Positions 3,001-52,994 of a stretch of DNA of 64,000 bases are shown here, piece after piece (position 1 is the stretch's first letter; each line of letters begins with the position of its first letter). The DNA is from Planoprotostelium fungivorum (Eukaryota; Evosea; Variosea; Cavosteliida; Cavosteliaceae). Both the position numbers and the translations under genes were made by a program. Where the stretch lies: NCBI GenBank assembly GCA_003024175.1, contig MDYQ01000007.1, positions 62,001 through 126,000 on the forward strand, given 5' to 3'. The notes beneath the pieces are model-generated. The model saw only the letters and a program-made list of their open reading frames with translations, made no database searches and had not been told where the DNA came from.

Positions 3001-4842
3001 ACTCACTCTCTCTCCCTTCTCTCACTTGAAACTTTTGTTGGTAGGTAGAGAAGGGTAGATCGGGCACCACCATCTGCTTCCTCACGGGTCGTTGCAGGTG
3101 CAATAAGGCCTGACGCCGTTCATCCGATTTCAAGTGTGACGACTCACCCCTTCAGGTATGTGATAGCTCGTCAACTGTCTGTGCAGTTCCAATCGCTTCA
3201 TTCTCCTCTCCTTCTTCTTCTCCGGTCTCTCCCAAGACAGAGTGAAACAACTCGGTTCTCTGATCTGAAAGGACTCACACAAGGAGGAGACGATGTGGTG
3301 CACTCTCTTCGTCTCATCGATTCTTCTGGCCACTGCACTCTCTGCCCCGGACAATTTGACCTGCTTTATATCAATTTCTTCGTCAGTGTATCACGCACAC
3401 CTGCACTTGGATGACTTTCTCCTTCTTCTCTTCTGGGACGATGGAAGTTGGTGCCCCGTTCACTTCTTGTGTCCCTTGAATGATCTCCCGCTCCGTCTGT
3501 TTCGTATCTCTGTCAGAGATAATACATTTACATCTTATAATACAAGTGGATAGAAGAGGGAGATATCAATTTGTATTTTGCAAGTGGATAGAAGGGATGT
3601 CACCTGTACAACGTCGAACATCTTTCCAGCGTGAACGAGTCGAGTGAAGTGGTACTTTCTACCGTCCTTTCTCCATCAGCCTTGATGACGAATGATGATG
3701 TGACATCCTACCTTCATCTTGAAAGTGAGCACCCCCTCGGGTATGAGGAGGAGGCAGCTGGTGCGCTCTAGATCGATGATGTCTGCGATAGGTAATATCC
3801 TCTTGTGTGTTCCTAACAGTGAGAAGTAACACACGTGCCTTTGTGAGAGGTAGACGTAACCGAATCGAGAAATACCATCCATGTGAAGTGCCCCCGAATA
3901 ACATCCAAAGACCTTCGTTGCATCATCACGATGAACATTGTAGAATGTGATGGTATAGAGCACGAAATGTAAAGTCGTTTGTCTATCACCTTCTCTTGAT
4001 AAGAAACGGAGGGGAACCTCTCGTGAAACTTTTTCAATGCCTTCTCCTGATCGTCATCAGAGATGATGCATCACTCTATCTCTTCACCTCTCCCTCTCTC
4101 ATGGTCTCTCTCGTCACCACCTGAAAATCACATGTGATGCAGATCTCTCCTTGTGCACTGCCTCCTTCCTTTCTGGGTTCTATGTATACATCACACACAA
4201 TACTCGAATCAAGTAGTGGGATCCTCACGAAGTGGTATCCATTTGGTCATTGTCGAATTCTCTGCTCTGATCTGGCTGACCGGGATCTGTATGATACCAA
4301 GAGAATGCTTTCCGATGAGCTCTTTGTGATAACATTTGAGAGTCAATACCGCTTCTTCTGTTCGTATAACAGGTCTGTTGATGATGAGAAAGGACGGAGA
4401 TGGAAAGACATCACATGGAAAACTTCTCGTTCCATTGAGGTTGAGAGGTCTTGTGCAGAGTCTTCGTCTTGAATTTCTCTTTTTCTAATTTGATGGACAC
4501 ATATGGGTCCACCTGTTGAATGATAGGCACATCATTTGAAGGTGAAAGAGCTCACCTTACTTTGGCTATTTGGACGATTGGGAAGATCGCGTGCGCCAGC
4601 CACTATAAAGATCAAGTCAATCTATTATCCGATTACGAGATCTCACCCAATAGATTCAAGACGTATGTATCCGTAGACGCTGATCTCTGCTGTGCCGCCT
4701 TCATCTTTGGTGAGATGGGTCCAGAATACTCTTCATCGTCTGATTGCTCTCTAGAGGATGCAGCCGAACTCGACGTCGATCCTCTCCTCGATCCCTTTGG
4801 AGAGAGCAAGGAAGAGAGCTTGGCAAAACTGCTCAACGACAT
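1..4842 (-). CDS. C2-GRAM-MUN domain protein (Munc13-related), 3' end beyond window
   Basis: Probably a membrane-binding, vesicle-tethering or priming protein. Reading from the ATG at 4842 (MSLSSFAK) there is a Ser-rich N-terminus, then a C2 domain (about 4690-4190) with AGARDLPNRP, VDPYVSIKLEKEKFKT, PQWNEKF and a late strand GKHSLGIIQIPVSQI. A GRAM/PH-like domain follows (about 4040-3600): FGCYSGALHMDGISRFGYVY, CYFSLLGTHKRILPIADI, KYHFTRLVHAGKMF. A long helical region comes next. Near the window edge is a MUN-like (MHD1) stretch: WLKEIAIKLNAWMEGALELD, then FHTSSVSDTFE and KYTERL. C2 and MUN together are typical of Munc13/BAIAP3/Munc13-4; the inserted GRAM domain is not part of the animal proteins I know. 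Introns of about 40-60 nt separate the exons. The MUN call rests on pattern resemblance. Its start lies 76 bp below the upstream gene's stop on the same strand. Confidence 0.6.
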
Positions 4843-4918
4843 GATCGAATGTGTCGTTTCGGACACACGGCTGAATGTGTTTCTCAACAAAAGAAAAAGG
4901 AGGTGTAGTCGTTACACT

Positions 4919-6228
4919 CTAACTTTTAATACTGATCATACCCGGTCTCCGTCCCTTCACTTGCTTCCTCTTCTTCATTGTCTTATCTACATTGTTCTTC
5001 TTGCCCTCCTCCTTGTCATACGTGTACTCCTCGTTGAGTTTGTTCGCCCACAATAATGTGTTGATGATCCAGAAGGCTCCCATGCCACCACCCGCGATGA
5101 ACCACAGGAGTCGAGCAACATCCCAGAACTGATGGACGGTGAATATCGATTGGACTCCCTCTGATATCCCAGATAGAACCTGCGTTCCTCAGTCTCTATC
5201 CATCACCGCATGAGATCTCACTCTCGTGGTGTATGTGTCCGTTCCGTCCTCCGAATTGGATGGTAAGATGTAGTCCAAGCTGATGAACAAGGGCAACATG
5301 AATAAAAAGACAAACTGTGAGGGTGAGTTTGCATGAGGACAAGGGGGGCTCACGAGTAGTCTCCTCTTCGTATACCGGACGAAAGGTGAGGGCTCTGGAT
5401 CTGATGAGGAGTCCTCCTGCAGGGATCGATAGTCGAATGGGCTGTAGATGGATGCATCAGAGGAGTAAGGAGAAGACCCAGAAGAGTGAGGGCTGCCCAG
5501 GGGACTTCCTGTGGTGGACGAGCAGTAGTCCGAGAGGAAAGGATCGGAGTCGACGACCGATAATGGAAGTGAAGGTAACTTCAGAGAGGGAAGGTCGACG
5601 TTAGACATGATGTTGGTGGTGCCCTGGAGCTCCTTTCCGAGGATGGAAGACAGAAACTGATCGTCTGAGACACCTCCTGTGCGGTGTCATTTCAAGTGAT
5701 TTGCAGGATGATTACCGTTGAGTCCGAAGGATAAGACCTCTTCTTCCTCTTCGGTGGGAATCATCTGAATAAAGATGCCCTGCTCTCGCAGTCGGTCCAT
5801 CTCTTGCAGTAAGAGTCTGTTCTGTCTCTGCAGACTCTTGTTTTCACTTGTCAATGTGGAGGCGACAGTTTGAAGGCGCTTGATGGTTGAGACGGCGCAT
5901 TCCAACACGGAGGCCTTGGTTGTCATTACATACTTACATTCGGGTAGCTGTGTTAAGTCATGGACTAGTCAAGTGGTATAGAGCCTCACCAGTTCTTTAA
6001 GATCCATGATTTGGACATTAATCTTCTGACGCCCTCGCTGTTCAGTAGCTTGATGTCTGTGCTGTTCAGAACGTTGCCTGAGGCATTTCTGACGGCCCAC
6101 CTTCTCTTCTTGTTCGTTCCATCGGGAACTTGGTTATCATCGTTTGATGAAGGAGAGGAACCACTCTCTGCAAACTCAGAAAGGTCGTCCGCGAAGAATG
6201 TATCTACCAGCAGTTCGCTGCTACTCAT
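4919..6228 (-). CDS. SREBP-like membrane-anchored bHLH-leucine zipper transcription factor
   Basis: A predicted ER-tethered transcription factor. The acidic N-terminus (MSSSELLVDTFFADDLSEF) leads to a bHLH basic region RHQATEQRGRQKIN with loop and helix 2 (KASVLECAVSTIKRLQ), then a leucine zipper (LTSENKSLQRQNRLLLQEMD). After a Ser/Pro-rich linker come two hydrophobic segments, FVFLFMLPLFISLDYIL and LLWFIAGGGMGAFWIINTLL, separated by a loop of about 37 residues containing TTRVLSG. This hairpin is the SREBP layout, and R-V-L-S fits the site-1 protease consensus (Arg, any, hydrophobic, any). Only about 40 basic residues follow helix 2, so the large C-terminal regulatory domain that binds SCAP in animal SREBPs is absent. 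The first intron is ambiguous: GT..AG choices of 23 or 41 nt both restore the bHLH frame. It is divergent from the kinase, with 108 bp between start codons. Confidence 0.72.
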
Positions 6229-6336
6229 TTTCTCTTGTGTGTTTTTCTCCGCGCTTGAGACCGTTTTGCTTCGGAGATTTCATATTACGTACAACATTAA
6301 AAGCTTTTTTGTGATCATCGTCGCACATTCTATGAG
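6229..6336. promoter_or_regulatory. shared divergent promoter of bHLH factor and STE20 kinase
   Basis: Only 108 bp separate the two ATGs, which read away from each other. The interval is AT-rich in the middle (ATATTACGTACAACATTAAAA) with no reading frame of its own, so both promoters and both 5' leaders must fit here or overlap the first exons. Confidence 0.5.
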
Positions 6337-9206
6337 ATGCCGGCTCAATGGTTCTTTCAGCGGAGGGCTGATAATGTGCTGACCTTGTCGGACGACTCAT
6401 TCCGGGCTGTTGTCGTTGGCACTCCGAGTGACATTACACATGCCGTTCATGTCGATCGGCAGTTACAGTGGAGTGGTTCTGGCGTCATCACAGAGTTTGC
6501 ATTGCATGAGGTCTTAGGGAAGGGGTGAGCTACTCCATTTTCCTCAGATTGCCTGATTTATTTAGGTCTTTCGGAGAAGTATTTCGCGCCACCCATAAGA
6601 CATCAGAGAAGGTAATGAGTTTTCATCTGAACAAACATCAGGAAGTTTCTGAAGATGGTAGGAGTTGGCTATCAAAGTTCTACATCAAGATGCCTCTGAT
6701 ATGAGTGGAGAAGAGGTACATCATACCGTGGATCTCCATTGATTCGAAACATAGATTCAACACGAGATCGACTTTTTGAAGAAGTTCAATCACGAGAACA
6801 TAGTACAATATTGGGGTTCTATTCTGATGAAAGATGCCTGCATATGGGTATGTAACCAAAGCTATATCCCCTGTTCTGATCAACAGATAGATCATGATGG
6901 ACTACTGTGATATGGGATCCATCGACGACATGATGAATCGCTGCGAGGAGACATTAGATCGTAAATTCATTTCTATTCTCCATCCATGCTGAACCCAATC
7001 AGTGCAAGAGACAAGATATGTAATGTACGCCACCCTGAAAGGCCTATCGTATCTCCACAATAATAACGTGAGTCCCCAGAAGATAGCGAACAACATCGAA
7101 CGACGAAACAGGTGATGCACAGAGACATTAAAGCCGGTAATATTCTGGTGGACTCCCTCGGGAACGTTAAGATCGCCGATTTTGGTGAGCCAATTTCACT
7201 CGACGAGCATCCACCACACGCATCTTGCTCATGTAACGATCAGGTGTATCAGCAGAGAACACGGGGAAGCATCAGACGATGACGGGAAGGTGAGACATCC
7301 ATCACACGATTTCAAAAGATTAACATTGTTAACAGTCCATATTGGATGGGTGAGGATGAATCGATTCCTCGACATGGATGATGAACGATGAATAGCTCCC
7401 GAGATATTAAAAATCAATCGAAAACCGTACGATGAGAAGGTGGACATTTGGTCTTTAGGTGAGAGAGTGATAGGAGACAAAGGTTGATCCTCCCATTCAG
7501 GTATCACGTGCATCGAAGTGGCTTCAGGTGCACCACCTCTCTACGATAAGAATCCGAGTCACGTGAGAAGAAGGATGAAGAGCGTGAAGAGATGACCGAA
7601 ATAGGCCATGAGAATCGTTCCCAAATTAGATGCACCGACGTTACCTTCTGATGGAGGCCAACAGTGGGATCCAAAATTAGAATCCTTCGTGAGAGAATGT
7701 CTAGTGAAAGACCCGAAAGCGAGAGGAAAAGCAGAAGAACTGTTGAATGTGGGATCTTCTTATCTCTCATCACTTACACGATCAGCACGACTTCTTCATT
7801 CACAGACCCATGGAAAACGATGCACTGAGAACAAAGATCGAAACCTGCAGGAAGATCCCCCGAAACAAGGTGAACATCAACGCCATCACACAATTCGATG
7901 TGTCATCAACAGATCATCGATTTGTACGATTGATGTCAATATCAAATCGTCGATTCACAAGATTGATGTGACGACAGAAGAGAGAATCATCTGATGGAAC
8001 GGAAGAGAGGAAGAAGACATCAGCCCCCACACGACCGAAGAAGAGAGGAAAGACGAATCGAAAGAGTGGAACTGTAGAAGACGAAGGAACGATCGTCATC
8101 ACTCCATCCAAGGAGAAGGTCACTGTCTCCATCGATTCTGAAGATGGAACGATGCTCATCCATCGAAGTGGAGAGAGTGTCATCGAGAGAGACCATGAAG
8201 ATAGCACGGTGAAGATCAACAGAGATGATGGAGAAGACAGTACAGTCAAGATCAATAGAGATGAAGAGGATAGCACGGTCAAGATCAACAGAGACGTTAA
8301 AGAAGACAGTACAGTCAGGATCCATGATCAACGAAGAGGAGAGAGTGCAAACAAGACGAATGGAAAGAAGATCACAATGGATGGAAAGAAGAAGGAGGAG
8401 ACAGTGATTGTACATAAGACAGAGTGAGTTCACACGTCGATATAAAAATAACGTCCACAGGAACAAGGGAGAAGCCAGACAGAGAGTGTCATCCAACCTC
8501 ACTCAGATGTCCACCGCAAAGACACCGAATGATAAGCAAGAGAAGACGCGAAAGAAGGCATCGATCGACGTCGATGACATGATCGGTTGGGCGATGCGAC
8601 ATCGATGGCTCATCATCGGTCTCATCATGGTGCTGTCTCTATCCTTCACGATTCCCCTGTTGTACGATTACTATTCACCGCCACCACCGCCACCACCTCC
8701 ACAAAAGTGAGAAGAAGAGAGAGGAAAGTCTGACAAAACGCAGAGACACGATGAAAGAAGTGGCTTCGACACTGTTGCACATCGCAACGTTGGGTCTCAT
8801 CAACGATCAGTCTGCACCCCCCGATGATCGATCGGCGACATCATCTTCCTCGTCTGAATCAGTGGCGTCGCGAAAACGAGCCCAGGCAGAAGCGCAAGCG
8901 AGAGAAGAGAGGAGAGAGAAACAGAAGAGGAGACAAGAGAAGGAAGCAGAAGAGAAGGAGAGGAGACAGAAAGAGGAGAAGAGACAGAGGGAAGAGAAGA
9001 GACAGAGGGAGGAGAAGGAGAGGAGACAGAGAGAAGAAGAGAAGATGCAGAGAGAGGAAAGAGAGAGGAGAGAAGAGAGACAGAAGGATGGAGGACAAGT
9101 GGTCAAGAAGAACATGTGGATGACGCGCATCATGCAAGTCACGAGTGTGGTCGTCAAGAGATTAGGAGATCTGATGATGAGATTGATGGCGGCTTTGGGG
9201 AGATAA
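6337..9206 (+). CDS. STE20/GCK-type protein kinase with acidic repeats, transmembrane segment and charged helix
   Basis: A Ser/Thr kinase. The catalytic domain lies at about 6500-7800: glycine loop GKGSFGEVF, lysine motif ELAIKVL, catalytic [11 protein letters not shown], activation segment TGSPYWMAPEIL, VDIWSLGI and a C-terminal [18 protein letters not shown], all as in MST/GCK kinases. The linker then carries at least four copies of E-D-S/G-T-V/M-x-I-N/H (about 8140-8325). The next exon encodes a hydrophobic helix, [20 protein letters not shown], followed by [11 protein letters not shown] 37-nt intron (8707-8743) joins in frame to an R/E/K-rich stretch of about 75 residues, a likely single alpha helix or coiled coil, ending in an amphipathic segment. 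No SARAH domain was recognised. The start was chosen as the first in-frame ATG, 109 bp from the divergent neighbour. Confidence 0.8.
8887..9090 (+). repeat. purine-rich (GAGAR)n coding low-complexity tract
   Basis: About 200 bp of almost pure purine, GAGAGGAGACAGA-type units, encodes the Arg/Glu/Lys helix of the kinase C-terminus. Long frames in other readings of this stretch are composition artefacts. Confidence 0.75.
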
Positions 9207-16928: not shown

Positions 16929-17521
16929 ATCGGATCAGTATACTTGGCCCTCTCGAGTGAAAAGGTGGTCCACCGCTCCATATCAGATGGGCTCAATTAG
17001 AGAGAGAGTCTTGGATGAAGATACAATGGCCTTCCTATGATATCCCAGCCAGGTTTGAGATGTTACAGCAGAGGTGATGTCAACGGCCATTCTTGATGGC
17101 GTTATCTTTGCAGGCACTACCCTCTTTGGACATGGATGGGCAATTATGTGTGATGAAATCAAAAGGTGAGAGGGACAAGTCACTTTTATTGACCAACCTC
17201 AGATTCTTCTCGTCTCTGGTCGTCATGTGACAAGCCTTTGCCAACAATCTCTCAACATCTTCACTTTCCTCCTCTCTACTCTTGGTGCGTGGTCTTGCAA
17301 AGGGTTTGTTCCCGGTGTCCCCCAAAAAGAGAAAGAATAAAACCGAGACGGTCTCGAGACGGTCCGAGACAAGACTTGTTTGTCTCGTCTTTGTCTCGTC
17401 TTGCGGTTTGGTCAGAGACAGGACGGGACGAGACACCCCTCTGTCTCGATCACGTCTCGACGTCGAGACAGAGACAGTCTCCAAGACAGTCTCAAGACGA
17501 GACCGTCTCTGCAGGTCCTTA
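16929..17521. repeat. left copy of about 0.59-kb direct duplication, hAT relic plus GAGAC end
   Basis: It begins ATCGGATCAGTATACTTGGC and ends GTCTCTGCAGGTCCTTA. On the minus strand it encodes a hAT-like tail: ESEDVERLLAKACHMTTRDE, then KNLRLVNK. It is near-identical to 17587-18153. The two copies flank a single N at 17586. Confidence 0.75.
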
Positions 17522-17586
17522 ATTAAATCGCTTTAGCTTTACCAACAACTATGGAATCAATCTGTTACCATAAGTGCATAGTTTAN

Positions 17587-18153
17587 ATCGGATCAGTATA
17601 CTTGGCCCTCTCGAGTGAAAAGGTGGTCCACCGCTCCATATCAGATGGGCTCAATTAGAGAGAGAGTCTTGGATGAAGATACAATGGCCTTCCTATGATA
17701 TCCCAGCCAGGTTTGAGATGTTACAGCAGAGGTGATGTCAACGGCCATTCTTGATGGCGTTATCTTTGCAGGCACTACCCTCTTAGGACATGGATGGCAA
17801 TTATGTGTGATGAAGTCAAAAGGTGAGAGGGACAAGTCACTTTTATTGACCAACCTCAGATTCTTCTCGTCTCTGGTCGTCATGTGACAAGCCTTTGCCA
17901 ACAATCTCTCAACATCTTCACTTTCCTCCCTCTCTACTCTTGGTGCGTGGTCTTGCAAAGGGTTCGTTCCCAGTGTCCCCCAAAAAGAGAAAGAATAAAA
18001 CCGAGACGGTCTTGAGACGGTCCGAGACAAGACTTGTTTGTCTCGTCTTTGTCTCGTCTTGCAGTTTGGTCAGAGACAGGACGGGACGAGACACCCCTCT
18101 GTCTTGATTGCGTCTCGACGTTGAGACAGAGACAGTCTCTGCAGGTCCTTAGA
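17587..18153. repeat. right copy of the direct duplication, beginning immediately after N
   Basis: It starts at the base after the N with the same sequence as 16929 and ends at the same GCAGGTCCTTA terminus. It has a few substitutions and lacks about 30 bp of the GAGAC array present in the left copy. Sequences diverge abruptly beyond the terminus. The pattern fits two alleles joined head to tail by an assembler, or two nearby insertions of one element. Confidence 0.7.
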
Positions 18154-42052: not shown

Positions 42053-43543
42053 ATGAGTCGCTTCGTACGCCCTTCGAAGAATGTTCCACCACCACAGCAA
42101 TTGTCATCCGTCAGCAGTTTTCGACCAGTGGCAGTCAGGAAACCCAATGCAGGATTACCACCAGGCTGCCGTCCTTCTGTACAGAACGGTCAGCTGTTGG
42201 TATCGTCAGGACTGCACGAATTAGATGATATCCTTTCGATGACCGTCGCACGTAGAACCGACATCCATTTCTTGACTCCCACTCACAATTGCTGGGAGGA
42301 GGTCTGTCCGTGGGCACGATCACAATCGTGGAGGAAGACAGAAACAGCAGCTATTATCTCGCGCTGTTGAAATACTTCATCGCGGAGGGTCTGGCAGTCG
42401 ATCACGAGGGGCTCGTGTACACTTCTCAACGTCAATTCGTATCGAGATTACCAAAGAACTTGACTGCAGAGTACGAGAAGGAGAAGGAAGAAGAAGAGAA
42501 GAGGAAAGCAGGAGGGGAAATCAACAAGGTGAACGGTGATACGATCATCTTATTCACTCGTGAACAGACGGAGACACCCAGTCTGACGATCGCATGGCAA
42601 TACGAGAAATATCTGAACAAGGATGCTGGTGTCGTCGCGCACAAATCAGGTGATGAATCCCATCGAGAGGATGATAATGAACCGATGAGAAACAGGGAGT
42701 CTGAAGGGTGCTTCGGTCAAATCGTTCTGTCATTCTTTCGATCTTGGAAAGAGCATGAGAGACGAGTACATGTCCTCGAAGAAGATGAAGACTGTCGACC
42801 CCTGCGAGCTATCGAGAGAGGACGTCTACCAGTCTCTCCTCGATTCTATCTCCTCCATCATCGAGAAAGAATACAGCACGTGAGTCCATCCGATGACGAT
42901 GCAATGTGTCATGTCTACAGGGATGGAAAAGTGATGAAGCAGCCGAACATTTTGAGGATCGGAATCCATTCACTGTGCTGTCCATCATATGGACCTATCA
43001 ATGTGAGATGCATGACATCATCGATCCATCACTGACCAACTCACAGGAGAGGTCACTCCTCTTATTCCTTCACAGACTCAAAGGACTCCTCCGACACTCT
43101 CTGGCGGTCTGCATGATCACCCTCCCATCACACATCATCGGTCCCCATCTGACAAAGAGTGTCCATCTCTATTCGGACACCCTCCTCTCTGTATCTTCCT
43201 TTGAGAGTGAGAATGACTTTTGAATCGAATGCAATTCTCAAAGTGTGCAGGTGCAGTGGGTCAAGTGTCATCTGCTTTCGATGAGTACGACGGCCAATTG
43301 GTCATCAAGAAACTACTTCGAATCAATTCGCTCGTCGCTCACACACCGGAGACACTGCACTACGTCTTTAAGATGAAGAGGAGGAAGTTACTGATCGAGA
43401 TCCTCACGTTGGGTCCCGAGGAGTCACGCTCTACGAAAGAGAAGGAGAAGGAAGAAGCAGGAGCAGAGAGAATGGCAGCAGCCAACATCTCTTCTGTCGC
43501 ATGTGCCCCTGCCCCGTCCAAGAGGAAAGATCTTGAGTTTTGA
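42053..43543 (+). CDS. ELP4: Elongator complex subunit ELP4 (PAXNEB)
   Basis: ELP4 is a RecA-fold subunit of the Elp456 ring needed for wobble-uridine (mcm5/ncm5) modification. Start MSRFVRPSKNVPPPQQLSSV at 42053. Blocks are GLHELDDIL-LGGGLSVGTI (P-loop-like region), TIVEEDRNSSYYLALLKYFI, AEGLAVDHEGLVYTS, TIAWQYEKYLNK, PNILRIGIHSLCCPSYG and RLKGLLRHSLAVCMITLPSH, ending SKRKDLEF (human ends GKKHLDF). Introns lie around 42240-42290, 42645-42700 and elsewhere. It is divergent from SUA5 by about 100 bp, pairing two tRNA anticodon-loop modification genes. Confidence 0.92.
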
Positions 43544-43626: not shown

Positions 43627-46218
43627 ATGATTGAATGGGAGGGCAAGTCAAAGATACTCACTACTTCACCGATCTACATGTTACCTCGAGCCGAGCTCGA
43701 CAAAATACCTGATGGCTACAATGATTCTGCAATGGTAGAGATAGGAGTGAGAGATGTCTTTCATCACGGTGGCGGTGTCTGAACAACACAGAGCGCCATA
43801 GAGACTCTAGATGACAGAAGAGACCGCGATCTTCGTCTGTTTGAAAATAGACCACTCGATCAATATTATTCCAAGCATCCAGAGCTCCTCCCAGCTCAGA
43901 TCGAGCTCTCAAAGATCTCGAGCTTTCGAAGAGATGAACACGAGAAGCGAATCAAGGTCGCAGAGAAAGTATTGAAAACCGCTCCTCTCTGCGCCGATGC
44001 TTGGTACGTATTCTTTTTCTCGATGGGCATTGATTTGTTAGGTGTGTGCTGGCTGAACATAAAGCGACCACGGTGCAGCAAGCATTAGAATATTACCGAA
44101 GAGGAGAAGTCGCTGGAAAGACCGCCGTCAACGATAAAGAATACGAAAAGAGGATCAGTGAGATCAGATGATGTCAACTCGCATCTGATATCACACAGAG
44201 GACCATTCACACCGACAACCAAAGAACGGAATCTTATACTGGAACACCTTGATCACCAGGCCATTCCTCCGAGCCAAGGCAGGCGTCGCACTCTGCCTCA
44301 TGAAATTGGGAGATTACGCAGAGGCCAGNTCTAGATGACAGAAGAGACCGCGATCTTCGTCTGTTTGAAAATAGACCACTCGATCAATATTATTCCAAGC
44401 ATCCAGAGCTCCTCCCAGCTCAGATCGAGCTCTCAAAGATCTCGAGCTTTCGAAGAGATGACCACGAGAATCGAGTCAAGGTCGCAGAGAAAGTATTGAA
44501 AACCGCTCCTCTCTGCGCCGATGCTTGGTACGTATTCTTCCTCTCGATGGGCATTGATTTGTTAGGTGTGTGCTGGCTGAACATAAAGCGACCACGGTGC
44601 AGCAAGCATTAGAATACTACCGAAGAGGAGAAGCCGTTGGAAAGACCGCCGTCAACGATAAAGATTACGAAAAGAGGATCAGTGAGATCAGATGATGTCA
44701 ACTCGGGATCTGATATCACACAGAGGATCATTCACACAGACAACCGAAGAATGGAATCTTATACTGGAACACCTTGATCACCAGGCCATTCCTCCGAGCC
44801 AAGGCAGGTGTCGCACTCTGCCTCATGAAGTTGGGAGATTATGCAGAGGCCAGACAAGAGGTACGACTCTGCCATCTCTCTCATCTGATGTGTCTCAGTG
44901 CCATCTGATCGTCGGACATCTCTGCCCGGCAGACAACTTAGGGATGAGAGTGCCTTACCTACTTTGTCTCATGCATATGAAGAGGTGGGACGAAGTGGAC
45001 TACCTCCTGGATATGTACCCCACGTGAGTCCGTGCATCTCTCTTCACACCTCTCACGGTGTCTCAGGAACAGAGTGGCCGCTTTTCAATACACGAAGGCA
45101 CTTCACGGATACAACCAGAGGAAACCTTCCACACTCAAGTGAAATGAAATGTTCCATCGTCATCCATCATCCATCATCCATCACCCATAATCATCACCCA
45201 TAATCATCCATCACATGAACGTGTCACCTGATGCGATGGACAGAGACCTCCACGCCGCCTATCTGATGAATCCCCACATCATGGTTCACCTCATCTCCGG
45301 TAAAAAGATCACCGTACCTCCCTGCTGCCTCCAGAATGGAACACAGGTGACCTCCCTCCACCTCCCTCCTCTCAACTCTACAGACCGAAGCTGACTTCTA
45401 CTCTTTCTTCTTCGGTTCTCTTTGGACACCCAACGCCATCCGTTGGGCACAAGAGACCCTGACGAAGCCAATCGAAAACAGGATCGAGCACAGCCACGAG
45501 CATGGCCACGGCTGCTGCTCTCACGACCACCACGGTCACGATCACGGACCGAAGAAGAGGGTGGACGTCGTCAAGATGGCGGACGAGTTGTTCGGGCACG
45601 CCGAGAAGAAAGAGCATTCGCTCGTCGTGGAGAAGGCAGACAAATTTCTGCCTCACATCGAAGATGAAACGTTGGAGAAAAAGGTTCGAGTACAGAGGGG
45701 GGATGCCATGTTCATGATGGTGAATGATGAGATGTGGTGGTGTGTCATCGAGGGGTAGGACAAGTATGACGAAGCGTACGGAGACTACTGGAAGGTGTTA
45801 GAGAGAGATCCAAAGTCACTCGTGGCACTGGAAGGTGAAGTGTGTGAGGTGTCTGGAATTCATTGGATCAGGTCTGGCTCGCTGTCAACACAAGCAGAAG
45901 AACTACGCACCTCTCTACTGGACGTTGAAGCATCTCCACACCATTCCTTCGTATGTGGATGGTGTCGTTGACATTGAAGAAGAGATGAAGAACCTCACGG
46001 TGGATCTAAAGGGGTGAGTCTTCGTGGTGATCATGTTGAGGACATGATGGTGATGGCGATGATCCGATGACACGAACAGATGTGGAATGTGTGGAAAGCA
46101 CGAGGGAAAGACGAAGATGTGCGGAGGTTGTCGAAGCATTCACTTTTGTGGTACAGAATGTTCTAGAAAACTGTGGCCCGTCCACAAGGTCTGGTGTAAA
46201 TCGAACGGAAGTCAATAA
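43627..46218 (+). CDS. ST7-like TPR protein with His-rich linker and C-terminal MYND zinc finger
   Basis: The start MIEWEGKSKILTTSPIYMLP is tentative. TPR/ST7-type blocks are KHPELLPAQIELSKISSFRR, RIKVAEKVLKTAPLCADAW, ALEYYRRGEVAGKTAVNDK, GILYWNTLITRPFLRAKAGV, LCLMKLGDYAEARQE, MRVPYLLCLMHMKRWDEVDY, AYLMNPHIMVHLISGKKI and SLWTPNAIRWAQETLTKPIE. The same open frame continues into HSHEHGHGCCSHDHHGHDHG, another TPR-like pair (DKYDEAYGDYWKVLERDPKS, CQHKQKNYAPLYW) and a full MYND finger CGMCGKHEGKTKMCGGC with HFCGTECSRKLWPVHKVWC. The gene is interrupted by a duplicated 523-bp block around the N at 44329, so part of the TPR region appears twice. An intron of only 27-33 nt precedes ETLDDRRDRD. Confidence 0.65.
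43806..44328. repeat. left copy of 523-bp duplication ending at N
   Basis: It begins TCTAGATGACAGAAGAGACC and ends GCAGAGGCCAG, directly followed by N at 44329. It contains the exon with LRLFENRPLDQYY and the following exons of the ST7-like gene. It differs from the right copy by scattered substitutions. Confidence 0.85.
44330..44853. repeat. right copy of 523-bp duplication starting at N
   Basis: It begins with the same TCTAGATGACAG immediately after the N and reaches the same GCAGAGGCCAG at 44853, then continues into the rest of the gene. Only substitutions are seen (for example GAACACGAGAAG versus GACCACGAGAAT). The exact end-to-N-to-start arrangement points to two alleles of one locus placed in series. 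Confidence 0.85.
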
Positions 46219-48704: not shown

Positions 48705-51700
48705 TTATACGACCAAACGAACACGAACGGGAGGGACATCCACTGGCTTCCGTTTCATCATGCGATGAACGATCATCACACCCGCCACGATGATGGCGAC
48801 ATACGGAACGATCACCCAACCTGTTCCCTCTCAGTTTCTATTCTCTTCCGTACAAACTCACTTAAGACGAGGTGGAATCCTCCATTGGATCTGGTGGATC
48901 TCTCTTCTTTGAATCTAGAGTCCCTGCCCTTCTCTGTCATCTTACCGGGTGAGTAATCGTCCCATTCGATCTTGACGTCTCCCTTTCCTTCTGTCTTGTG
49001 GAACACCCAAGAGGGACATGTTGCCGTCTTACCCATCACCTGCATCATCATCAACACCATGACATCAACATCATCATTCTAATGTGGTGTGAGATTCACC
49101 TTTGAATACTTGTATAGATCTGCCCCTTCCATTCTGAGGGGAAGAGTGGGGAACATGGGAGACTTGTACTCCTTCTCCAGATACTCCCATTCAAACTTCC
49201 TATCCATTCCTCCCTTCATCGCGAATCGCAGCATGTCCCCTGCATCCATCAACACGTGTCCCTCTACACATCACACTCACCAGCCAGGCCATAACAGGAT
49301 GCTTTACTTCCATAGGAATCATCCAAACAGCTGCTGTCTCCATACAGTGCTATCCTTCCCTTCATGTTCTGCGGTAAGGCCTGACTCTGTGTCGTGTCAA
49401 GGGATGTGGTATGATATCGTGGGGAAGATGTCGTACCGTATTGGGGTAAGGGTAGATGGCGAGGGGGTAGACCGTCTTGAATTCTCCGCGGAATCTCTTC
49501 AGGTCTTCCGTCTGGTCCATGAGACTCTGAGGGACCATTCCTCCTCCCTTGGGAAATCTCGCGATCGTCACACCAGATCCGAAAGCAGCATTGTGATCAT
49601 CTACTCAGAGTCAACTCTTCCATCAACTTGATCATCAACTTGATCATCACGAGCGTCATGATGATGATGACGATGATCGATGATGATGATGATGATGGTG
49701 ATGATGACATCGCTCACCATTCTCTGATTTTAGAATTCCATCGAAAACTCGATCCCCGAAGGCCATGTCGAACGGTCTCAGCAGGTCGTTGAGGGCCGGA
49801 ATATTTGATCCACCCGTGGCGGGGGACCACCACTGCTTCGTGTTCTCGTCAAAGAAGACCACGTTCTTCATCACCTGACATCGTCAGAGATTCCACAGAA
49901 AACTCGATGAGATCTCACATCGACGTTGTACCAATCGGCAAAGATGACGAGGGACAGACCTTCCTCCCTGACGTCCCTCTCTATCTTTTTGATTTCGGCG
50001 GGAAAATATTCCTCTTCTGGATCTACAATGACGAGGGCACCGTAGTTCTTCGCGTCAAAGCAAGTGTAAGGGCTGCCCAGTATGTCCACGTAATATCCTT
50101 GGTTCCTCAGATATGCCCACATCCACTGTTCTTGTCAGTCTTCAACATCCAAACGACTCGAATGGAAAGAACATGAATGATGATGATGAGTGATGATGTG
50201 AGTGATGATGATGAGTGATGATGTGAGTGATGACGTGATTCTCCCACCTTAAAGTTAGTGTGTAGGTGATCACCGTTCCAGTCAAAGGGTTCGTCTCTCT
50301 GATCCAATGCGTCCCTGGGGAAATATCCAGAGGGGTATCGTATGGAGTGGTATTGGTCCCACAGGATTCTCTTGCTCCGCTCCACTTGAGGTACGATCGT
50401 CACCTGCCCCACTCACTCTCCTTCTCTCTTCTCTCTCTCACCTTGATCGGGAAATCGATCACTTGACTTCTGTCCTGTGTTTCTCCTGTTCCTACTCCCT
50501 GGTCAGATGTGGCTCGTTGTAGAGGATATCGTTATGACTGGTTGTAGATGAAATCACCTGGTGGAGATGACACGGTGAGCGAGACGATTCCCTCCGCTTC
50601 TCCGTCGTAGTCTTTTCCTTCTTCCGATACCCTGTCCCGCATCAATCCACATCGACATCGACATCACACCTGATCTGTACAGCGAGATATCCCGTCCAAG
50701 GCCAGAGTACATCCGAGTAAGTGAATCTCACTTCTAACAAGTTTCCGTGTGTCGCTGGCTTCCACACAGGAGGTTGAGGGATCTATGTGTCGTCATTCCT
50801 CTGTCGTTCTCTTCGATCGAGATGACTCACTGAGCCCGTGACACCCATACCGTTGATGACGGTGATATTTACAATGATCGGCATGCTGGTGTAGAAGATG
50901 GGCTGCGTGCAGTAGGGCCACAGGTAGGGACACTGTGTCAGATCTCCTGATGCTGGTAGTAGAGACACTCTGGGCTTCGTCTCTTGCAGTAACTGGTAGC
51001 TCTTGACGAGATGTACCTTGCCCGATCCCTGCTCGAATATGTTCCGATCCGATATACGTTCGGCTCCCTCTATCAGTACCTTTCTCTTCGTTTAATCTCT
51101 CTCTTCACGTCGAGTGGATCACCTGCTTCAATGTGGCAACGTTGACGCGATCGGATCTCTGCTCTGGGGGGATGGAAGATATGAGAAGGGCTAAGACTCC
51201 TGTCGTATGTTCGGTGGAAGAGCGAGACGTTCACAACTTCACCTGCCACGACTGGACTGGCCACGGATGTACCGGATAATTTCCTGCACTCACCATCGGG
51301 TCTCGATCCTGTTGTCATCAGATGTCATCATGGATGAATGTCTTCGAAGAATGTGATGTCTTCCTCGATAGAGAAGAAGAGGAGGACAGAGAGATGTGAA
51401 GGGTTACCATCTACATTCTGACCGAAAGTGATGACATCTGGTTTGACTCTTCCGTATCCTTCGGGGATCTCCCACGTGGTCATACCCCTCGATGAAAATT
51501 CAGCCAATTTTCCGTCCAATTTGAGACCTCCCACACCGATCACGTCTGTCCACGATGTCATGATGATGTCTCATGAGCTCGTGATGTTCTATCGTCTGAC
51601 TCACCCAATTGATCGGCAGGATTGTTCAGTGTTCCGTAGAGAGGGCCGTCATTACCAATGGCTGAGACTACAATGACGTTGTTCGCGCTCAACTCCCAGA

Positions 51701-52994
51701 CCTGATCGAATGAGTCGTCTCGTTGTAGATCGACAATTCACCTTCTCCACAAAGGGTCTGTCCATGAAATCTGGACCTCCTATGGAGAGGTTCAAGATGT
51801 TGATCTCCTTCATCAGAACGTGATTGAATGCATCGAGGAACCACGATGTGTAAGAGACTGTCCTCTGTCACTCACACACTTGTGCATCACTCACTCTTCT
51901 TATCGTTGAACACTCTGAAGATGTACATCTCTGAATCGGGGGCCAGGCCGGGACACGAAGGATGACGGCTACCGATCACCCCGGCAACGAACGTACCGTG
52001 TCCCACGGTGTCGTAAGATTTACTCTCTTCGGTCCAATTGGTGATCTCCACGACGTTCCCAAAGTGTGAGTGACCTGAGGAGTCAGGCTCGTCTCTCTCT
52101 ATGCTCACCATGCTTGAGACCCGTGTCAAATACGGCCACTCGAACTCCAGCACCTTAGAGAGATGAATAAAATGTCGGATTTCGATTGATTTTCAAAGTG
52201 GAAGTAGAATGACTTTGTTGAAGAAAGATACGTACCGGTGTAGTTTCTGTCCCACATGTACGTTGCATCTAACAGATCAACGATCTGCCCGTTTCCGTGC
52301 AGCTTTCGCATGCCTGGATAATAGTCTTCTAGATCCTCTTGCTCTGAGAATCTCGTGCTTCCTCTGTCGTCTTCTATCAGATCCACTGGAATCATGCATG
52401 CAAAATGAACCGTATGAGATGAGCTCACCTGCCAACTCGATGGGTTGCCATCTTGGTTGCATTTGGAAATCGTTTCTCGTCGTAATCTTGGTATTCTTCT
52501 GTATCTTCCTCAAACTACTCCAGTTGAGTGGATGATGTGATTATGAGTCATGACCTGATTCAATGTTCCAACATATCTCCTCTGTCGGGCGACGTGCTTG
52601 ACTCGTGGATCGTTTCTCAATGTTTCTATGTGCTTTTTTGCGTTGGCAGTGAATTGAACGAGAGAGAAATCAGAAGGATGTTCCACAGCTGGATTGTTTC
52701 TCTCTATCGTGAACCAATCATCTGAAGTTCCTAATATGTCTCTGATGATCGTATCGTGTTTGGAGATGTCCGTGAACGTGTGGAACATGACAATGTATTC
52801 TGATTCGATCAGAGTTCGATGAGGAAAAAAGGCTCAGCTTACGTGATTTGATAGGATTATTGACGTTCTCGTCTTCAATATCTGTTTTTTCAGTCGATCC
52901 AAGGCAACATGATACAGAGCACCACAATAAGATTAATCTGTGATCGTTGAGTAATATAATGAAGGATACGATCCCACAAGGTTAGTTGCCTCAT
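48705..52994 (-). CDS. MBTPS1: membrane-bound transcription factor site-1 protease
   Basis: A subtilisin-family protease of the Golgi lumen that activates SREBP and ATF6 by cutting RXX(L)-type sites. Start [20 protein letters not shown] at 52994 leads into a hydrophobic signal [12 protein letters not shown]. The prodomain includes [20 protein letters not shown] and [14 protein letters not shown]. The catalytic triad is intact: Asp in [11 protein letters not shown], His in [15 protein letters not shown], Ser in [18 protein letters not shown]; oxyanion Asn in [20 protein letters not shown]. Downstream conserved blocks are [71 protein letters not shown] and [19 protein letters not shown] transmembrane segment [20 protein letters not shown] and a basic tail end the protein. 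Full length, with about 18 short introns. Confidence 0.97.
49640..49715. repeat. (GATGAT)n microsatellite in site-1 protease intron
   Basis: An imperfect run of GATGATGAT units within an intron. A shorter related run lies at 50178-50235 (GAGTGATGATGATGAGTGAT). Confidence 0.6.

Follow-up and report, generated by a model that had tools for sequence, protein, structure and literature searches.

Can a basic helix-loop-helix (bHLH) transcription factor be linked to release by site-1 protease (S1P) without docking on SCAP? Most of what is known of how the SREBP switch (DNA-binding half, membrane hairpin, proteases and SCAP) was put together comes from animals and from fungi, and S1P is missing in those fungi that have been studied. 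Where a genome has retained S1P, a short bHLH-hairpin protein could reveal a link between S1P and a bHLH factor that is free of SCAP docking. If true, such a link would allow the protease step and the sterol sensor to be dated separately. The locus described here raises this question. It lies in a window of 64,000 nucleotides (the whole stretch of DNA analyzed) that is eukaryotic, intron-rich and about 47% G+C, and it encodes a membrane-anchored bHLH-leucine zipper (bHLH-Zip) protein on the minus strand at positions 4919-6228. The short introns of the window and the genes it holds hint at a protist, perhaps an amoebozoan.

Gene structure and neighboring genes

The gene runs from an ATG at 6228 to a TAG stop at 4921-4919, in exact agreement with the earlier note on this DNA, and comprises six exons encoding about 368 aa. 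Introns 2-5 are canonical GT..AG introns of 42, 39, 39 and 42 nt, and their removal leaves a single open frame; the two of 39 nt, at 5715-5677 and 5353-5315, separate exons 3 and 4 and exons 4 and 5, respectively. Intron 1 is ambiguous, as either 41 nt (6129-6089, yielding 368 aa) or 23 nt (6100-6078, yielding 374 aa) can be removed. The 41-nt version (6089-6129) was preferred because introns of the S1P gene in the same window measured 38-48 nt, plus one of 122 nt, and none was as short as 23 nt. The shorter candidate, which would leave NKKRR in the protein, was disfavored by its size.

Exon 1 (6130-6228, minus strand, as are all parts of this gene) encodes residues 1-33, SSELLVDTFFADDLSEFAES, an acidic N-terminus with a positive in-frame codon score that is a possible activation domain. 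The basic region and helix 1, RQRSEQHRHQATEQRGRQKINVQIMDLKEL, are encoded by exon 2 (5990-6088), and the loop, helix 2 and leucine zipper by exon 3 (5716-5947), as placed by the gene model and the Pfam HLH match. Exon 4 (5354-5676) of the model adds a Ser/Asp/Pro-rich linker that ends in RYTKRRLL, ahead of the first membrane helix.

The reading frame is continuous over 1104 nt and carries the codon bias of the genome. With codon usage trained on the S1P gene of the window, the proposed frame scored +0.23 overall, compared with -0.28 and -0.37 for the others. Exon 2 (6088-5990), taken alone, had a better codon score in another frame, and a score as low as its own was seen in none of the 43 comparable S1P windows read in their true frame. 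Despite this codon usage, the frame of exon 2 was settled by the bHLH profile, which it matched at 19.1 bits when the highest value among 300 shuffles was 10.2; the competing codon frame was absent among the best profile matches.

A SCAP-binding C-terminal regulatory domain, one of the features by which SREBPs are recognized, is absent from the gene, which stops at 4919. On the 3' side a same-strand C2/GRAM gene starts about 80 bp beyond this stop, and a kinase gene in divergent orientation apparently starts near 6332-6337 on the 5' flank, about 105-110 bp away. With neighbors at about 80-110 bp, a long SREBP-type C-terminal domain is therefore not encoded nearby. The earlier note was right to see no SCAP-binding domain, and a long C-terminal domain spliced onto the gene, which it had named as evidence against its own reading, was not found at the DNA level. 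A fusion reaching into the C2/GRAM gene is likewise disfavored, since a separate ATG opens that gene about 80 bp beyond the stop.

This downstream gene (3600-4850, minus strand) contains two C2 stretches (1e-25), and its match to GRAM is below threshold. Fragments of the divergent neighbor (6332-8710, plus strand) read like a STE20-type protein kinase, tandem repeats lie beyond them near 8160-8310, and a hydrophobic segment around 8600 is a possible membrane anchor; the exon of this gene at 7605-7991 had no Pfam match. Elsewhere in the window, an Elongator subunit 4 homologue (Pfam PAXNEB, 8e-24) was found at 42256-43032 (plus strand). Direct repeats at 16929-18139 (96-100% identical, spacing 658 nt), with a single N at the copy junction (17586), are possibly an assembly artefact, and a tandem duplication at 43806-44853 (95-98%, with copies 524-525 nt apart), which has one N at its junction (44329), is likely an assembly join. 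Scanning of the window for Rfam families and tRNAs returned none.

DNA-binding domain and kinship

Residues 43-92 form a bHLH domain that exceeds the gathering cut-off of Pfam HLH (28.7-28.9 bits, E 1e-6, or 1.1e-6 unrounded). Contiguous with its helix 2 is a perfect leucine zipper of five heptads (L91, L98, L105, L112 and L119). The bHLH with an immediately adjoining zipper that is characteristic of SREBPs, and that had previously been read from the letters, is thereby present. The basic region carries the E-box set His5/Glu9/Arg13 (HxxxExxxR), and an E-box of the CACGTG kind is predicted because of it. A tyrosine that replaces arginine in the basic region is diagnostic of SREBPs (PMC8549280, PMC3894159); the earlier note had pointed to its absence here, and the residue at its position is indeed a Gly (HQATEQRGR).

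The best PDB sequence matches of the bHLH were USF2 (2e-4), MAX (1e-3), SREBP-1a (2e-3) and MITF (2.5e-3). In a 25-sequence bHLH tree, which is a rough guide built on one short domain, the protein sat on a long branch with no supported grouping. The SREBPs were its nearest rows by path, grouping with them cost 0.6 log-likelihood units (p-AU 0.20), and placements with SREBP, MITF/TFEB, USF, MAX and BIM1 all went unrejected. The suggestion that the basic region looks more like USF/MITF thus holds insofar as USF2 tops the PDB matches, but is weakened by SREBP-1a and MAX lying within about one order of it and by a tree that rejects no placement. A search for relatives in prokaryote genomes and viral contigs returned none, as expected for a eukaryotic gene.

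Because Gly stands at the tyrosine position, no C-terminal domain is present and no grouping is supported in the bHLH tree, we do not file the protein as an SREBP on its present sequence. It probably works like one, as an S1P-type released bHLH factor without SCAP docking. What sets this case apart is that a bHLH hairpin protein with neither the tail nor the tyrosine occurs where S1P has been retained, a pairing of which no description was found in the open-access literature; the open-access full text on SREBP in Dictyostelium, Amoebozoa and Acanthamoeba described no such protein.

Predicted membrane hairpin and lumenal loop

The two hydrophobic helices claimed in the earlier note were recovered by topology prediction at residues 246-268 and 304-326, with predicted insertion energies of -2.29 and -1.11 kcal/mol, respectively. 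When the C-terminal region was shuffled 500 times, no shuffle reached both energies, and control sequences of SREBP-1 and SREBP-2 gave the expected two segments in the same script. The bulk of helix 1 (residues 252-268, FVFLFMLPLFISLDYIL) is encoded at 5264-5314 and has a central Pro that can be likened to those of S2P substrates. Helix 2 (ARLLWFIAGGGMGAFWIINTLLW) is encoded at 5048-5116. Between them lies the predicted lumenal loop (residues 269-303, positions 5117-5263), which is split by the intron at 5221-5180, and helix 2 is followed by a Lys/Arg-rich C-terminal tail (residues 327-368, positions 4922-5047) that is without the SREBP regulatory domain. The loop measures 35 residues and not the 37 given before, and the tail, put at about 40, has 42.

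The sequence RYTKRR precedes helix 1, the tail contains 13 K/R, and the loop contains five acidic residues and one Arg. By the positive-inside rule, both ends of the protein are predicted to be cytosolic; the two-helix hairpin with cytosolic ends that is typical of SREBPs is, by prediction, present.

SREBP-2 is cleaved in an RxxL context, and no RxxL was found in the 35-residue loop. The only arginine of the loop lies in TTRVLSG, a string that had been correctly spotted and that spans an exon junction between TTR and VLSG. Within it, RVLS (residues 282-285) is located about 20 residues ahead of helix 2, a position like that in SREBP-2. Relaxed S1P patterns such as RVLS turned up in 8-17% of shuffled loops. 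With RxxL missing and the looser pattern this frequent, the description of the protein as having its own site-1 cleavage motif is not supported as it was put. S1P cuts after RRAS, RSLK and RKVF (PMC8310232), and Ser at P1 is therefore acceptable and a cut between RVLS and G permissible. The motif fits S1P cleavage but is not compelling.

Site-1 protease gene elsewhere in the window

A near-complete homologue of S1P (MBTPS1) is encoded at 48747-52788 on the minus strand, with a pro-region, catalytic Asp/His/Ser motifs and a C-terminal hydrophobic stretch. An assembled 682-residue piece aligned with human S1P over 660 residues (E 3.9e-236, 789 bits); the Asp, His and Ser motifs are all intact within this alignment and the S1P-specific downstream region is matched. 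Subtilisins trailed at about 1e-23 or worse. The gene contains many introns of about 40 nt, its exon limits are approximate, and the assembled piece stops short of the exons between 49285 and 48821. The hydrophobic stretch at 48821-48747 looks like the C-terminal anchor of the protease.

The S1P and bHLH genes are about 42 kb apart. Thus, the presence of the S1P gene in the window speaks for an S1P in this organism, and not for an operon-like link between the two genes. The gene, on which the earlier note was silent, is nevertheless the best support for a release mechanism, and it backs the release from the membrane that had earlier been thought likely. The motif pair of a site-2 protease was not found within the 64-kb window, which on its own says little about the genome.

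Proposed mechanism and alternative explanations

We lean toward a two-pass ER bHLH-Zip factor that would be freed by S1P and then by a site-2-type cut, bind an E-box and do without animal-type SCAP docking. The protein would be made as an ER membrane factor with both ends in the cytosol. We infer a first cut in the lumenal loop by the genome's own S1P, probably between RVLS and G, and a second by a site-2-type intramembrane protease in helix 1, whose proline is helix-breaking. Once freed, the bHLH-Zip half would dimerize, enter the nucleus and presumably bind an E-box of the CACGTG kind. Animal-type SCAP docking would be impossible because the SREBP C-terminal domain is missing, and trafficking may be constitutive or governed by a different signal (sterol, ER stress or oxygen).

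The origin of such a factor can be read in more than one way, as reduced, ancestral or convergent. It is quite possible, if somewhat short of an even chance, that the protein is a true diverged SREBP that lost its C-terminal regulatory domain, like Sre2 of S. pombe and Sre1 of basidiomycetes, and had its tyrosine secondarily replaced. The identical layout of the architecture, the proximity of the SREBPs by path with the small cost of grouping with them, and the existence of truncated SREBPs in fungi (PMC8549280) argue for this, against the Gly at the distinguishing position, the higher PDB ranks of USF2 and MAX relative to SREBP-1a, and a tree whose support is unstarred and which leaves the MITF, USF, MAX and BIM1 groupings equally unrejected. 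The same Gly, with USF2 as best PDB match and no detectable SREBP C-terminal domain, would suit an independent invention, in which a member of a different bHLH-Zip subfamily acquired a hairpin anchor and was drawn into the S1P route. We consider this unlikely: an HLH with transmembrane helices was rare outside SREBP in a vertebrate survey (PMC12724719), the loop and helix spacing are close to those of SREBP, and the tree gives it no preference over kinship. That a wholly unrelated factor convergently acquired both anchor and S1P release, giving a SCAP-free switch in a protist, is slightly more doubtful still.

Other explanations concern the release and the gene model themselves. Plants have S1P, and its substrates there are bZIP proteins; the S1P of this genome, therefore, need not act on the bHLH-hairpin protein. 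The protein may be anchored and released by other means (a Dsc-type ubiquitin ligase with the proteasome, a rhomboid or signal-peptide peptidase), or not released at all, as the S1P-free activation of fungal SREBPs (PMC8549280) and an S1P motif near chance would allow. This seems rather improbable for a genome that, unlike those fungi, encodes S1P, and for a loop with a compatible site where one is expected. A wrong model that joined two genes, one for the bHLH protein and another for a two-helix membrane protein, would be in keeping with a first intron that is ambiguous, a low codon score of exon 2 in the bHLH frame and evidence that comes from DNA. Such an error is very improbable, however, given the canonical 39-nt introns that connect exon 3 with exon 4 and exon 4 with exon 5, the continuous frame with the codon bias of the genome, and flanks of about 110 bp upstream and about 80 bp downstream that leave no space for separate promoters.

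Comparison with known systems

Animal SREBP-1 and SREBP-2 (SREBF1/2) share with the protein described here the bHLH-Zip, the Ser-rich linker, a hairpin with cytosolic N and C termini, a lumenal loop of 30-50 residues, the helix 1 proline and an S1P in the genome. The present protein differs from them by a Gly in place of Tyr, the absence of RxxL, and a 42-residue tail where they have a SCAP-binding domain of roughly 500 residues. In vertebrates, the rare pairing of an HLH with transmembrane helices marks SREBP (PMC12724719); in Arabidopsis, membrane bHLH proteins have also been predicted and listed (PMC9237531).

The reduced SREBPs of fungi are similar too. S. pombe Sre2, C. neoformans Sre1 and X. 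dendrorhous Sre1 are without the DUF2014 C-terminal domain, the last of these is probably SCAP-independent, and the fungi named are without S1P, fungal SREBPs being activated independently of it (PMC8549280). As with S. pombe Sre2 and basidiomycete Sre1, the bHLH-hairpin protein would be of SREBP type with DUF2014 missing. The fungal proteins differ in retaining this residue, the tyrosine (reported for X. dendrorhous Sre1), in belonging to genomes without S1P, and in being processed by the Dsc complex or the S2P homologue Stp1. In K. phaffii, the processing of Hms1-1 is less dependent on its SCAP analogue (PMC12926077).

The USF and MITF-TFE factors share the bHLH-Zip and the His/Glu/Arg E-box contacts, USF2 being the best PDB match, but are soluble, lack a membrane anchor, have a longer HLH loop and carry Arg at the position of the SREBP tyrosine, where Gly is found here. 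ATF6 and plant bZIP17/28 are likewise membrane transcription factors tied to S1P/S2P, and differ in having a bZIP domain, a single pass and a large lumenal stress-sensing tail. Altogether, since reduced SREBPs are known in fungi, the protein represents a variant and not a new category.
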